Source: Paenibacillus sp. P25 (GTDB lineage Bacteria > Bacillota > Bacilli > Paenibacillales > NBRC-103111). Taken from it: 64,000 nt of DNA. Position numbers and translations under genes: made by a program. The DNA is taken from positions 1,674,001 through 1,738,000 of the forward strand of contig CP085629.1 in the NCBI GenBank assembly GCA_024704175.1. The letters run 5' to 3'. Shown here in pieces: positions 20,745 to 28,508 of this stretch (position 1 is the first letter of the stretch; the number at the start of each line of letters is the position of its first letter). The notes below the pieces were generated by a model that ran no database searches, was not told the origin of the DNA, and saw only the letters and a program-made list of their open reading frames with translations.

Positions 20745-23700
20745 TTAAAAAATAATCGCGTTTAAAGCACGGGTCTGTGCTGTAATACTGCTGATTCCTG
20801 TAGCCGTTATAACCTCAATCGTGACTGTGTATGTGACAGAAGCAGAGATATTGTCATTCCAGGTAAGATTGGGAATTTCGGTAATAGTACTTCCGGACAT
20901 ATTTGCATTACTATTCCGGCTAATTTGTAATGTTGCTAAAGGACTAGCCAGACCACTTCTTCTTAAACGGTAATTAATAAAATAATTAATAACAGGAGAC
21001 CCCGTATCAATTAGTAACTCCACTGTTGAATCCAATTTCACCCGGCTGGAAACGGTCGGACTGACCGCAAGGGTAAGAACAGTGACCTCCCCTGCACCAA
21101 TCAGGTTTGCTGTTGTCGTTTCTGTAGAAGTTGCAAAGAAGGCTAACGGTATAGGTCCTTGAGGTCCTTGCTGCCCCTGAGGTCCTTGAGGCCCTTGCTG
21201 GCTCTGAGGCCCTTGCTGTCCTTGAGGCCCTTGCTGTCCTTGAGGCCCTTGCTGCCCTTGAGGTCCTTGTGGCCCTTGCTGGCTCTGAGGCCCTTGCTGT
21301 CCTTGAGGCCCTTGCTGTCCTTGAGGCCCTTGCTGCCCTTGAGGCCCTTGCTGTCCCTGAGGCCCTTGCTGTCCCTGAGGCCCTTGCTGTCCTTGCTGCC
21401 CTTGCTGCCCTTGAGGTCCTTGCTGGCTCTGAGGCCCTTGCTGCCCCTGGGGTCCTTGTTGTCCTTGAGGCCCTTGAGGTCCTTGCTGGCTCTGAGGCCC
21501 TTGCTGCCCCTGGGGTCCTTGTTGTCCTTGAGGCCCTTGAGGCCCTTGAGGTCCTTGCTGGCTCTGAGGCCCTTGCTGCCCCTGAGGCCCTTGCTGCCCC
21601 TGAGGCCCTTGAGGCCCTTGCTGGTTCTGAGGCCCTTGCTGTCCCTGAGGCCCTTGCTGTCCTTGAGGTCCTTGCTGCCCCTGAGGCCCTTGCTGTCCTT
21701 GAGGTCCTTGCTGCCCCTGAGGCCCTTGCTGTCCTTGAGGTCCTTGCTGCCCCTGAGGCCCTTGTTGACCTTGAGGCCCTTGCTGCCCTTGAGGCCCTTG
21801 CTGGTTCTGAGGCCCTTGCTGTCCCTGAGGCCCTTGCTGTCCCTGAGGCCCTTGCTGCCCTTGAGGTCCTTGCCGGCCTTGAGGTCCTTGCTCTCCTTGG
21901 GGCCCTTGAGCTCCTTGCAGCCCTTGAGGTCCTTGCAGCCCTTGGGGTCCTTGCAGCCCTTGAGGTCCTTGCAGCCCTTGAGGCCCTTGCTGTCCCTGAG
22001 GCCCTTGCTGTCCCTGAGGCCCTTGCAGCCCTTGAGGCCCTTGCAGCCCCTGAAGTCCTTGCCCTCCTTGGGGTCCTTGCTCTCCTTGGGCCCCTTGCTG
22101 CCCTTGAGGTCCTTGCAGCCCTTGAGGTCCTTGCTCTCCTTGAGGTCCTTGCTCTCCTTGAGGTCCTTGAGGTCCTTGCTCTCCTTGAGGCCCTTGCTGT
22201 CCTTGCTGTCCTTGAGGCCCTTGCTGTCCTTGAGGCCCTTGCTCTCCTTGGGGTCCTTGAGGTCCTTGCCGGCCTTGAGGCCCTTGTTGACCTTGAGGCC
22301 CTTGTTGACCTTGAGGCCCTTGCAGCCCTTGCAGCCCTTGAGGTCCTTGCTGCCCCTGAGGCCCTTGTTCTCCTTGGGGTCCTTGCTGCCCCTGAGGTCC
22401 TTGTTCTCCTTGGGGTCCTTGCTGCCCCTGAGGCCCTTGCTGTCCTTGAGGCCCTTGCAGCCCTTGAGGCCCTTGCTGTCCTTGGGGTCCTTGCAGCCCT
22501 TGAGGCCCTTGCTGTCCTTGAGGCCCTTGCTGCCCTTGAGGCCCTTGCAGCCCTTGAGGCCCTTGCTGTCCTTGAGGCCCTTGCTGTCCTCGAGGTCCTT
22601 GCTGTCCTTGAGGCCCTTGCTCTCCTTGAGGTCCCTGCAGCCCCTGAGGCCCTTGCAGCCCTTGAGGTCCTTGTTGGCCTTGAAGTCCTTGCTCTCCTTG
22701 AGGGCCTTGCTCTCCTTGAGGTCCCTGTTGCCCCTGAGGTCCTTGAGAGCCTTGGGATCCTTGAGGTCCGGCGGCTGGTCCTTGGGGACCCTGAGGCCCT
22801 TGCTCTCCTTGAGGTCCGTCGGCCGGTCCTTGAGGCCCTTGCTCCCCTTGAGATCCCTGCTGCCCTTGAGGGCCTTGTTCACCTTGTTCTCCTTGAGGCC
22901 CTTGCTGTCCTTGCTCTCCTTGAGGTCCTTGAGGTCCTTGAGGTCCTAGAGCTCCTTGTTCTCCTCGGGGCCCTTGAGCTCCTTGCTGTCCTTGCTCTCC
23001 TTGGGGCCCTTGCTGTCCTTGCTGCCCTTGAGGTCCTTGGGGCCCTTGCTGTCCTTGCTGCCCTTGAGGCCCTTGCTGCCCTTGAGGCCCTTGCTGTCCC
23101 TGAGGCCCTTGCTGCCCCTGAGGCCCTTGCTCTCCTTGAGGCCCTTGCTGCCCTTGAGGCCCTTGCTGTCCTTGAGGCCCTTGCTGTCCTTGAGGCCCTT
23201 GCTGCCCTTGAGGTCCTTGCTGTCCTTGAGGTCCTTGCTGTCCCTGAGGTCCTTGCTGCCCTTGGGGTCCTTGCTGCCCTTGGGGTCCTTGCTGTCCTTG
23301 CTCTCCTTGAGGCCCTTGCTCTCCTAGGGGACCTTGAGGTCCTTGCTGTCCCTGAGGTCCTTGCAGCCCTTGAGGTCCTTGCTGTCCCTGAGGTCCTTGC
23401 AGCCCTTGAGGCCCTTGCTGTCCCTGAGGCCCTTGCTCTCCTTGGGGCCCTTGAGGCCCTTGCTGTCCCTGAGGCCCTTGTTCACCTTGGGGCCCTTGAA
23501 GTCCTTGCTGTCCTTGAGGCCCTTGCTCTCCTTGGGGCCCTTGAAGTCCTTGCTGCCCCTGAGGCCCTTGTTCACCTTGGGGCCCTTGAAGTCCTTGCTG
23601 TCCTTGAGGCCCTTGCTCTCCTTGGGGCCCTTGAAGTCCTTGCTGCCCTTGAGGCCCTTGCTCTCCTTGGGGCCCTTGAAGTCCTTGCAGCCCCTGAGGC

Positions 23701-26451
23701 CCTTGTTCTCCCTGAGGCCCTTGTTCTCCTTGAGGCCCTTGCTGTCCTTGAGGCCCTTGCTGTCCTTGAGGCCCTTGCTGTCCCTGAGGCCCTTGCTGCC
23801 CTTGAGGCCCTTGCTGTCCCTGAGGCCCTTGCTGCCCTTGAGGCCCTTGCTGCCCCTGAGGCCCTTGCTGCCCTTGAGGCCCTTGCTGTCCCTGGGGCCC
23901 TTGCTGCCCTTGAGGTCCTTGCTGCCCCTGAGGCCCTTGCTGTCCCTGAGGCCCTTGCTGTCCTTGAGGCCCTAGCTGTCCCTGAGGCCCTTGCAGACCT
24001 TGAAGTCCTTGTTGCCCCTGAGGCCCTTGCTCTCCTTGGGAACCTTGAGGTCCTTGCTGTCCCTGAGGTCCTTGCTGTCCTTGCTGCCCTTGCTGCCCTT
24101 GAGGTCCTTGAGGCCCTTGAGGCCCTTGCTGCCCCTGGGGCCCTTGCTGTCCCTGGGGCCCTTGCTGTCCCTGGGGCCCTTGCTGCCCTTGAGGTCCTTG
24201 CTGTCCCTGAGGCCCTTGTTGCCCTTGAGGTCCTTGCTGTCCTTGAGGCCCTTGCTGTCCCTGAGGCCCTTGCTGCCCTTGAGGCCCTTGCTGTCCTTGA
24301 GGCCCTTGAGGCCCTTGCTGTCCTTGGGGCCCTTGGGGCCCTTGAGGCCCTTGCTGTCCTTGGGGCCCTTGGGGCCCTTGAGGCCCTTGGGGCCCTTGGG
24401 GCCCTTGAGGCCCTTGCTGCCCTTGAGGCCCTTGCTGTCCTTGCTCTCCTTGAGGTCCGCTGGCCGGTCCTTGAGGCCCTTGAGGCCCTTGCTCTCCTTG
24501 AGGTCCGTCCGCCGGTCCTTGGGGCCCTTGGAGTCCTTGCTGCCCCTGAAGACCTTGCTCTCCTTGGGGCCCTTGCTGTCCCTGAGGCCCTTGCAGCCCT
24601 TGAGGACCCTGCGGCCCTTGAGTTCCTTGCTGAGCCTGAGGCCCTTGCTCTCCTTGGGGACCTTGAGACCCTTGCTGCCCCTGAGGACCCTGCGGCCCTT
24701 GAGTTCCTTGCTGCCCCTGAGGCCCCTGCTCTCCTTGGGGACCTTGAGGCCCTTGCTGTCCCTGAGGCCCTTGCTGTCCCTGAAAGCCTTGCAGCCCTTG
24801 AGGTCCTTGCAGCCCTTGAGGTCCTTGTTCGCCCTGAGGCCCTTGCTGTCCCTGAGAGCCTTGCAGCCCTTGAGGTCCTTGTTCGCCCTGAGGCCCTTGC
24901 TGTCCTTGAGTCCCTTGGGGCCCTTGAGATCCTTGCTGTCCTTGAGGCCCTTGCAGCCCTTGAGGCCCTTGCTGTCCTTGAGGCCCTTGCTGCCCCTGAG
25001 GCCCTTGCTGTCCTTGAGGCCCTTGCTGCCCCTGAGGCCCTTGCTGTCCTTGAGGCCCTTGCAGCCCTTGAGGCCCTTGCTGTCCTTGAGGCCCTTGTAG
25101 ACCCTGAGGCCCTTGCTGTCCTTGAGGTCCTTGCTGCCCCTGGGGCCCTTGCTCTCCTTGAGGCCCTTGAGGCCCGCCGGCCGGTCCTTGAGGCCCTTGA
25201 GGCCCTTGCCCTCCTTGAGGTCCGTCAGCCGGTCCTTGAGGCCCTTGGAGTCCTTGCTGCCCCTGAGGCCCTTGCTGTCCTTGAGATCCTTGCTGCCCCT
25301 GAGGCCCTTGCTGTCCCTGAGTTCCTTGCTGCCCCTGAGGCCCTTGCTGTCCCTGAGGCCCTTGCTGTCCCTGAGGCCCTTGCTGTCCCTGAGGCCCTTG
25401 CTGTCCTTGAGGCCCTTGTTGCCCCTGAGGCCCTTGCTGTCCTTGAGATCCTTGCTGCCCCTGAGGCCCTTGCTGTCCTTGAGATCCTTGCAGCCCTTGA
25501 GGTCCTTGCTGTCCCTGAGGCCCTTGCTGTCCCTGAGGCCCTTGCTGTCCCTGAGGCCCTTGTTGCCCCTGAGGCCCTTGCTGTCCTTGAGATCCTTGCT
25601 GCCCCTGAGGCCCTTGCTGTCCTTGAGATCCTTGCAGCCCTTGAGGTCCTTGCTGTCCTTGAGGTCCTTGCTGTCCTTGAGGCCCTTGCTGTCCTTGAGA
25701 TCCTTGCAGCCCTTGAGGCCCTTGCTGTCCTTGAGGCCCTTGCAGCCCTTGAGGCCCTTGCTGGCCTTGAGGCCCTTGCTGTCCTTGAGGCCCTTGCTGT
25801 CCTTGAGGCCCTTGCAGCCCTTGGGGCCCTTGCAGCCCTTGAGGCCCTTGCAGCCCTTGAGGCCCTTGCTGTCCTTGAGGCCCTTGCTGTCCTTGAGGCC
25901 CTTGCTGTCCTTGAGGTCCTTGCAGCCCTTGAGGCCCTTGCTGTCCTTGAGGCCCTTGCTGTCCTTGAGGCCCTTGCAGCCCTTGAGGTCCTTGTTCTCC
26001 TTGGGGTCCGCCGGCCGGTCCTTGTTCCCCTTGAGGCCCTTGCTGGCCTGTAGCTCCCCTGCGGTCCCTGAGGCCCTTGAGGCCCTTGTTGGCCTTTTTC
26101 TGCATTTAATAGCTCTTCCGATACGATTCGATGGGCAGCTACCAATTGCCCGGATGAATCTTTACCCCATACAGAAATTTCAGTTTCGTCCTCTGCTGCT
26201 CCGCCTGTAGTGAAGACAAATTGATAAGCATCGAAATTTGCGAAATAGTTTTTGGTTATAACCTGATTTGGTGCTAACGAGGTCAATTCTTGTACGTACA
26301 TAGTTTTGATGCCGTTTAAATAGAACCCTTCAATTAGTATGGTCGAGAAATTTGTTGTACTTTGATTATCGATTTTGACGGTGACAAATTGTGTAGGTCT
26401 TACACCAGCAGTAGGATTATTGGCTATGGGTCCGGTCGACAGTACGGCCAT
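20745..26451 (-). CDS. Very large collagen-like protein, probably spore- or cell-surface (one frameshift)
   Basis: Predicted about 1,900 residues. Head (1-117): starts [23 protein letters not shown], a beta-rich N-terminus I associate with Paenibacillus/Bacillus surface proteins. Middle: about 550 Gly-X-Y triplets, mainly GPQ, GQQ, GLQ and GEQ, with Gln at Y almost throughout. Tail (about 135 residues): [20 protein letters not shown] and on, a beta-sandwich-like domain, probably for trimerisation. The start at 26451 has GGAGGTAC. One extra base near 26065, just inside the first triplets, breaks the frame and is probably an error. A few triplets carry one inserted residue ([14 protein letters not shown]). 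No signal peptide, lipobox or LPXTG is seen, which fits exosporium or mother-cell assembly. Function in surface filaments is inferred from the family. Confidence 0.88.
21150..26100 (-). repeat. 9/18-bp tandem coding repeat (Gly-Pro-Gln / Gly-Gln-Gln)
   Basis: About 5 kb of near-perfect tandem repeats with a 9-bp basic unit encoding one triplet and a common 18-bp double unit (plus strand CCTTGAGGCCCTTGCTGT and relatives). Synonymous and single-base variants (CTGCCC, CAGCCC, CTCTCC) mark sub-blocks. Rare GGTCCGYCRGCCGGTCC-type units (22766, 22813, 24453, 24503, 25170, 25220, 26006) encode the irregular GPA segments. Because the unit is a multiple of 3, most frames on both strands stay open, giving long spurious reading frames. 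Assembly of the copy number may be unreliable. Confidence 0.95.
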
Positions 26452-26746
26452 TTAAGTACCTCCACTTGTTTGCTTTCCTTTTTTTGGAGAGGATTGATTC
26501 TCACGTGGATTACCGTACATGTGGTCTTTGTCCGCCATCGTACAAAGAAGAACGAATGGCCAGCACTTCTGACAACGACTGATCTTGTGCTTCTCGTCTA
26601 GAAAGCAGGCAAGAAGCTTTCGGCGATGATTCAACGTCAACTCCAGCAATGGATGTCGGTCTTACCTAGCTATATCAAGGCTTGTTTGCCGAATTCATTC
26701 TGCGAAAGTTGAGTCAATAATTCCTTGCCGACAACAACCGTTATGA
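26452..26746. other. Upstream region of the collagen-like gene
   Basis: Gene-free. It should hold the promoter of the minus-strand collagen gene. I could not identify a convincing sigma-A or sporulation-sigma promoter by eye. Confidence 0.4.
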
Positions 26747-27256: not shown

Positions 27257-27285
27257 AAATCATGTTTAGACCAAGGAGGAGAACT

Positions 27286-28508
27286 ATGAATCCGCTCAAA
27301 GTGGCTTTAATCGGGATCGGCGGGGTCGGAAAAGCGCACGTCCGAACGATAGTGCAGTTGGCGAGGGAGGGCGTGTTATCCTGCGTGGCGTTTTGCGAAC
27401 CTAATGTGGAGAAGGCTAAGGAGCAGAAGGAGGAGCTGGAGGCGATTGGCGCCCGGCATTATACGGATTACCGGGAGATGCTGAAGCATCCCGGTTTGGA
27501 TTTTGTTGCCGCCGCCACGCCGATTCCTTTACATAAGCCGATGTGCATCGATGCGCTGGAGCAGGGGTTCCGATATTGCTGGAAAAGCCTCCGGCCGTGG
27601 CCATTGAGGACCTGGACGCCATGATTGAGGTCCAGCGGAGGACCGGAATTCCTGCAGGGGTATTCTTTCAGAACACGTCGGGGAAGGCGTTCCGGCTAAT
27701 GCTTCAGAAGCTCCGTGAAGGTGTCATCGGTGAATTGAAAACGGTTACCGCCGTTGGGATGTGGAAACGAACGCAGCAGTATTACGAACGGACCTATTGG
27801 GCGGGTTCTATCGTATACAATGGCCAGTATGTGCTGGACGGCACTCTGTGTAATCCGCTGGCCCACTTGGTGAATAATGCACTGATTTCCGCAGGTGCGG
27901 GCGATCCCGGGCAGGCAGAGCCGCGGTGGGTGCAGGCGGAATTGTACAAAGGCCACGATATCGAATCGGAGGATACGGCCTGTGTAAGGGTCCAGACGCA
28001 AAATAACGTGCAGGTTCACCTCTATACTACCTTGTGTAACGACCAAAATGACACGCCCTATATCCGTCTGGAAGGAACCGCCGGGCAGATGCACTGGTCT
28101 TACGATAATAAATTGACGTTCACCGGACCGGAAGGACAACTCGAGAGCTTCCAGTTTGAAGAAGAAAGCCTGTTCCGCAATATGTACGTCAATATGTGCG
28201 AGTATTTGCGGGGAGATGCGGAGAGACTCTACAGCTCGCTGGCTGATTGCCGAAGCTTCGTGATGACGGCTAACGGCGCCTTCACCTCGACAGGCTCCAT
28301 CCATTCCATTCCCAAGGATGCTTTGGACATTCGTCCCGAGAATGATACGATAGCCACGACGATCATTGGGGTGCAAGAGCTTTTTGCTTCGGCTTCCGGG
28401 AGCGGTAAGCTGTTCTCCGAGCTGTCCGTCCCATGGGGCGTGCAGACCACGAAGGTTGATATGAGCGGATACAAGAAGCTTCAGCTCGGCATGTTAGGCG
28501 TGAAATGA
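27286..28508 (+). CDS. Gfo/Idh/MocA family oxidoreductase (frameshifted)
   Basis: NAD(P)-dependent sugar or inositol-type dehydrogenase. The N-terminal Rossmann fold KVALIGIGGVGKAHVRTI is followed by DFVAAATPIPLHKPMCIDAL and the family EKP motif (LLEKPPAV), then a C-terminal alpha/beta domain. One G lost near 27568 shifts the frame between the last two blocks. The ATG at 27286 follows AAGGAGGAG. Total length is about 407 residues. A terminator follows, so it is a single-gene unit, though it lies before the PHP/GDPD cluster. Confidence 0.9.

Follow-up and report, generated by a model that had tools for sequence, protein, structure and literature searches.

Architecture of the locus

The window analyzed here is a 64,000-nucleotide stretch of the Paenibacillus sp. 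P25 genome (CP085629.1, positions 1,674,001 to 1,738,000), and it carries on its minus strand a gene for a long collagen-like protein. A candidate ribosome-binding site, GGAGG (26459..26463, counted on the upstream sequence), precedes the start codon of a 120-residue N-terminal head (26092..26451), which is followed by a collagen stalk (21159..26057), a C-terminal domain of 137 residues (20748..21158), and a stop codon (20745..20747, from the open-frame list). The head sits in a different frame from the stalk, which the first-pass annotation overlooked. The head frame opens at 26451 and covers about four stalk triplets, the stalk frame runs from 26105 to 20745, and three-frame translation places the junction near 26,060, approximately within 26055..26065. 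The protein of about 1,900 residues that had been described at 20745-26451 exists as a sum over both frames, not as a single open frame.

The stalk was delimited by triplet count, by its match to the Pfam Collagen family (PF01391, E 3e-243), and by Tandem Repeats Finder, which reports a single array with a period of 18 bp, 273 copies, and 78% matches; it qualifies as a long Gly-X-Y run. From 26057 down to the GPI that opens the tail, and counting that GPI, there are 522 in-register triplets (535 by a looser count of runs of at least five triplets), and Gln occupies Y in 513 of the 522 (98%). Four triplets dominate (GPQ 244, GQQ 159, GLQ 45, GEQ 40), and X is most often Pro (250) or Gln (160), followed by Leu (45), Glu (40), Ser (13), and a small number of others. 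The 1,636 stalk residues include no Lys, 4 Arg, 40 Glu, and 3 Asp, and the whole protein lacks Cys. An array of this kind with fixed Gln is far above chance. The main compositional claims of the first-pass annotation, namely near-fixation of Gln at Y, dominance of these four triplets, and charge carried mainly by Glu with almost no Lys and rare Arg, were all reproduced, as was its estimate of about 0.5 micrometre for the helical length (458-468 nm computed for a fully helical stalk).

The stalk has 15 irregularities, of which 7 are register shifts and 8 are replacements of Gly with the register kept (Ser 5, Asn 2, Ala 1). Seven of the eight replacements lie within 21212-21815, in the last part of the stalk. 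The register shifts, at 26012, 25235, 25178, 24518, 24470, 22829, and 22781, are mostly paired, with GPAD and then GPAS/GPAA or GPAGGP recurring along the stalk, and are possibly hinges or remnants of a larger repeat. Because the 18-base repeat is poor in stop codons, long open frames also occur elsewhere (for example, one of 1,594 amino acids on the plus strand, and others in other frames), and these are therefore no evidence of genes.

The C-terminal domain, defined from its translation and from relatives, is a module that other collagen-like proteins also carry. It was detected in 23 of 392 genomes, including on collagen-like proteins with other N-termini. The window tail matched no Pfam family, the 23 members together gave DUF1942 in two cases and DUF4489 in one (best E 3e-4), and a PDB sequence search with the tail returned a best E of only 1.4. 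Genes that share the window's head can end without any such domain (e.g., L047, L057, and L062), with a window-like domain, or with what look by eye like propeller repeats (L066 and L069).

A head domain shared across spore-forming genera

The head, delimited by translation, a 38-row alignment, and an AlphaFold2 model, contains no Cys and 5 Lys, and its start does not, by eye, resemble a signal peptide. The model (pLDDT 88.6, pTM 0.79) is all-beta with a helix just ahead of the stalk, and near-invariant positions in the alignment (M1, L4, S5, G7, P8, and I9) cluster at the N-terminus. Pfam and NCBIfam scans found no family for the window head, and across 38 members of the head family they returned three families with one member each (best E 0.025); a PDB sequence search with the head gave a best E of only 1.4, and comparison with PHROGs gave weak matches only (best E 0.012). 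When the model was searched with Foldseek, the first match by E was a phage tail-fibre chain (E 7e-4, TM 0.31), and the best by TM were TM1070 (0.56) and the Anabaena sensory rhodopsin transducer (about 0.5), with carbohydrate-binding modules also present. The predicted fold is best described as a generic beta-sandwich, and we claim no homology to these matches. Two candidate relationships were discarded: the Foldseek match to Ena2A is meaningless (TM 0.26), and DUF4183 (PF13799) gave no match to the head at E up to 1 and an hhalign probability of 0.1%.

Of 392 genomes sampled from the order, 100 contain the head (E 1e-15), as do 14 of 398 genomes in a phylum-wide sample (E 1e-10); these 14 comprise five from the window's own order (its own genome among them), three from family f20, and six from family f32. 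Named hosts among 17 loci are Cohnella, Paenibacillus, Bacillus, Peribacillus, Rossellomorea, and Metabacillus, all of which are spore-forming genera. We read 97 distinct heads, the window's included, from these 17 loci, from stretches of its own genome and of G033, and from 40 chosen stretches; the latter were taken from the top of the order matches listed, at least five of them in genomes already covered, so the sample is non-random and close relatives may be over-represented. Cys is absent from 96 of the 97.

In 54 of the 97, the head leads in frame into a stalk of at least 15 triplets. The remaining 43 include the window head, on account of its frame change. Most are short head-only proteins, and several sit on longer non-collagen proteins; the head is therefore not solely a collagen anchor. 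At L123, L128, L129, L134, L137, L140, and L141, the head belongs to a protein of about 430 residues that has no collagen stalk. The genome of the window itself encodes a paralogous pair at about 2,260,841-2,263,837, consisting of a head-only gene and a head-stalk gene with Gln in 216 of 247 Y positions. More distant relatives include one in the same genome (G000:7040110-7040442; L050:4078-4800) that has a beta-propeller repeat and a weak Enas match (E 0.11), and stand-alone heads, 141-151 residues long and basic at the C-terminal end, from another family of the phylum (L191, L192, and L193). Overall, the window gene belongs to a widespread family whose stalks are locked to Gln or to Thr and which probably forms spore-surface fibres.

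Gln and Thr as alternative states at Y

We sorted the 54 other head-stalk genes by their Y residue into 11 that are Gln-locked, 37 led by Thr, and 6 that are mixed. The Gln fraction at Y is 0.87-1.00 in the first set, 0.26-0.51 in the mixed genes, and 0.00 in the Thr-led genes, where Thr is commonest (0.52-1.00); in four of these (L060, L061, L068, and L071), most of the non-Thr Y residues are Ala. The Gln-locked group is a definition of the present analysis (the same head, with Gln at Y of at least 0.8), and the window gene falls within it. The first-pass annotation had set homologues without a Gln bias against its own reading, and this objection holds by half, since the same head precedes both Thr-Y and Gln-Y stalks. 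Its statement that familiar collagen-like proteins are Thr-rich at Y agrees with Table 4 of PMC3368898, in which Gram-positive collagen-like proteins have 48.3% Thr and 18.4% Gln at Y; next to that mean, 98% Gln is extreme. Over 108 collagen-like sequences, Thr is also given as the commonest residue after Gly (PMC6238073). A literature search limited to titles and abstract openings, with patents and most subscription journals outside it, returned no description of the head or of a Gln-locked Y position. At L124:2182-9651, a head-stalk protein of 2,476 residues has 783 triplets, with Gln at Y in 772, and the window protein is therefore not the longest.

On a quick tree of 95 heads, which has few columns and many open forks and leaves out the other-class sequences of the L188 group, one cluster (SH-aLRT 93) unites the window with 10 of the 11 Gln-locked relatives and also takes in three long-branched head-only rows, and L062 falls elsewhere; the stalk genes on this tree require two changes between Gln and other residues at Y. 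In L188, which comes from another class, a pair of arrays with Gln in 34 of 41 and in 39 of 44 Y positions is built as GIQGTQ, with Ile or Thr at X, and adjoins a head-only gene; the stalks of the other members of this group (L186, L187, L189, and L190) are Thr-led. Because these Gln arrays stand on other X residues, the Gln-lock arose again there. The 11 Gln-locked genes have Pro at a fraction of 0.28-0.54 of their X positions, compared with at most 0.21 in 35 of the 37 Thr genes, but a simple rule in which Pro at X and Gln at Y together confer stability fails, as Pro at X is low in the L188 Gln arrays.

Could Gln at Y simply reflect multiplication of an 18-base unit? The stalk is indeed one tandem array with a period of 18, in which codons repeat in phase, CAA in the Y and CAG in the X position. 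The Y codons of the array, however, comprise both CAA (432) and CAG (87), so that silent changes have occurred with the residue kept, whereas X varies freely. Amino-acid changes one step from Gln number 7 at Y against 519 Gln, and 87 at X against 160 Gln (Fisher 6e-40, a value that overstates significance because the repeats are not independent). Among 86 distinct hexads, Gln occupies 77 and 77 of the two Y sites and 24 of the second X sites, and the 11 other arrays, with different X residues, still have Gln at Y. These codon and residue patterns indicate that Gln at Y is maintained by selection beyond copying, and copying as the sole explanation is very improbable.

Equally hard to sustain is the first-pass suggestion that the Gln-rich stalk is an acyl donor that a spore transglutaminase cross-links to lysines of the head. 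The genome does contain a TGL family gene (matched in part, over positions 50-243 of 245), and five lysines are available in the head. On the other hand, the stalk itself has none, and 15 of 16 genomes have a TGL match irrespective of Y type, the single genome without one being that of the Gln-locked L062. Since its distribution is independent of Y, we have dropped this role as highly implausible.

Glycan genes were also considered as a correlate of the Thr/Gln switch and do not discriminate. GT2, WbsX, DegT, or PglD-type genes lie near the Gln-type L047, L057, and L062 and near the mixed L058 (10 proteins scanned), and sugar genes were noted by eye near L059, L061, and L063. WbsX occurs in 13 of 22 genomes and within about 5 kb of the locus in two only (positions by eye). 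As glycan-synthesis genes accompany both Gln-type and mixed loci, Gln need not imply a sugar-free stalk.

Pairing with head-only genes

A head-only gene lies just upstream of all 11 Gln-locked relatives (11 of 12 if the window copy is included), of 13 of the 37 Thr-led genes, and of 2 of the 6 mixed genes. The difference between Gln and Thr genes gives a Fisher p of 2e-4 on rows that are not independent, and, as the 40 chosen stretches mostly cover about 0.5 kb upstream, distant partners could have been missed in all types. All 11 partners of Gln-locked genes, along with the partner of the mixed L058, form one cluster (SH-aLRT 96). In other words, a pilin-like gene of the same head family adjoins the collagen-like gene in the paralogue and the other Gln-locked loci (11 of 11). 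The window copy has no neighbouring partner, and tblastn of stalk-less heads against the window gave a best E of 0.08 outside the head itself. L047 and L057 share similar stretches upstream of their head-only genes (ATTGTATTTT...CGGGGCAAA.AAACAAGCA), a candidate for a shared promoter or regulator site.

The lack of a partner bears on how the frame change is to be read. If the change is real, the window copy may have lost its partner and be the silent relic of a pair like that of its paralogue. The frame change itself fits such decay, as does the absence of any partner or partner remnant in the window. A second copy at L065:9724-11904 consists of a head, a stop four triplets into the stalk, and then a stalk continuing in frame; with a stop at the equivalent place, breaks there may also be real. 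Yet the stalk frame has no further break over 5,361 bases, and the quality of the assembly offers another source for the one that is present. The genome is a single contig of 8,483,018 bases with a completeness of 84.52%, whereas completeness is at least 97% in 38 of 39 other genomes compared (the exception, G007, has 85). A gene for a Gfo/Idh/MocA-type oxidoreductase (27262-28508) is also split over two frames, which overlap at 27,543-27,624, and in the F-Anchor-like gene of this genome, too, the collagen and DUF4183 parts occupy different frames. Because low completeness in one contig coincides with other frame-split genes, we attribute the frame change to a probable assembly error, and we consider decay unlikely. 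An in-frame stop also occurs in L062, close to the end of its stalk.

Comparison with known spore appendages

The stalk of BclA is Thr-rich and glycosylated, and the window protein resembles BclA in joining a collagen stalk to a globular C-terminus. It differs in having Gln at Y and in beginning with a folded domain, where BclA has an exosporium leader (PMC11952670). Since the head matches no Pfam or NCBIfam family, there is no exosporium leader at this position. Motifs resembling sigma-K promoters occur at 3 of 37 starts, where 1.2 would be expected (5 against 2.3 for the -10 part alone), which lends no real support to a sporulation promoter. Of the two readings named in the first-pass annotation, exosporium or surface filament, the gene is best read as encoding a long surface filament; an exosporium location in particular is not supported, with no leader family match and with sigma-K motifs that are not clearly in excess.

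The closest precedent in layout is the F-ENA system, in which a pilin is combined with the collagen-like proteins F-Anchor and F-BclA; PMC11952670 describes a fibre with a width of 5 nm, at the tip of which F-BclA, with a collagen region of 701 residues, makes up a fibrillum about 200 nm long. As in that system, a small pilin-like gene lies beside a collagen-like gene in this family, and a short, conserved N-terminus is of the hydrophobic-hydrophobic-x-Pro-hydrophobic kind (MAVLSTGPI here, M-P-psi-psi-polar-P-psi in F-ENA; PMC11952670). The head is nevertheless not DUF4183, which places the window gene outside this system, and here a whole folded domain precedes the stalk, in contrast to the hook peptide described for F-BclA and to F-Anchor, where DUF4183 follows the stalk. 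Pilins of the S/L-type ENAs (PF13157), which are endospore appendage subunits with a collagen tip protein, L-BclA, are similar in subunit size; unlike them, with their N-terminal double cysteine, the window head has no Cys and no Enas match. PF13157 had no match in six genomes, a weak test because the control genomes gave none either.

A further indication of location may come from applied work: PMC11278568 cites US patent 10,988,769 for a Paenibacillus endospore display platform. If the patent sequence is of the head family, a spore-surface location would already be known in practice. We take the spore-targeting N-terminal sequence of this patent to be a member of the window head family; the patent reportedly deals with display, and the choice of stalk residue is said not to be its subject.

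A proposed spore-surface appendage

Because the layout resembles that of F-ENA but DUF4183 is absent, we propose an F-ENA-like appendage built on another domain. By this analogy, the window gene would code for the stalk component of a module that builds a spore-surface appendage and works like F-ENA and F-BclA with unrelated sequence, a reading to which we assign a probability of roughly 0.55. The protein would be made in the mother cell with no signal peptide, and its predicted beta-sandwich head would join a support made of, or capped by, a head-only protein of the same family, which in this genome is encoded beside the paralogue and not beside the window copy. Three chains would then form a collagen triple helix about 0.46 micrometre long, and the C-terminal domain, at the far tip, would determine the binding target.

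The main rival model has no pilus at all: on the spore, the head-only protein would act as an adaptor at the base, the role that ExsF has for BclA, and a hairy nap would be formed by stalk-protein fibres, each attached through its head. One adaptor gene with one fibre gene would give the observed layout, the stalk and tip are BclA-like in plan, and for 24 of the 37 Thr genes the upstream stretch covered (about 0.5 kb for many of them) shows no head-only partner. Partner and fibre, however, share one domain, which fits self-assembly at least equally well, and an exosporium leader family match is missing. We regard the nap model as possible and somewhat doubtful.

In the appendage module that we favor, the lack of hydroxyproline at Y in bacteria would be the reason for retaining Gln, whose exposed amide could supply hydration and hydrogen bonds to the next chain, with no sugars needed; Thr in the sister genes would be an alternative state that could carry glycans like those of BclA. 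Helix stability through hydration and hydrogen bonding is the most likely function of Gln at Y. A review links high Thr and Gln in Firmicutes collagens to hydration networks (PMC8968730), and in a peptide crystal, with Phe, Gln at Y contacts the next chain by its side chain (PMC9599227).

A more tentative extension casts the head family as the pilin of an endospore appendage of undescribed type in at least two spore-former classes, with Thr-locked (sugar-bearing) and Gln-locked (amide-stabilised, sugar-free) stalks separately maintained, and with a Gln form that evolved more than once and is tied to its own head-only partner. With its head in about a quarter of the sampled genomes of the order and unmatched in Pfam and NCBIfam, the family makes a good candidate for a second system of spore appendages with a wide distribution. 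The exchange of Gln and Thr at one helix position among homologues offers a natural experiment in collagen stabilisation without hydroxyproline, and stalks of up to 783 triplets (L124) could be of use for materials work.

The genome of the window also has a separate, genuine F-ENA-type locus (G000:5314045-5315011; L049:3037-4234), where a 94-residue DUF4183 pilin accompanies the F-Anchor-like collagen gene; DUF4183 was located at G000:5314045-5314573.
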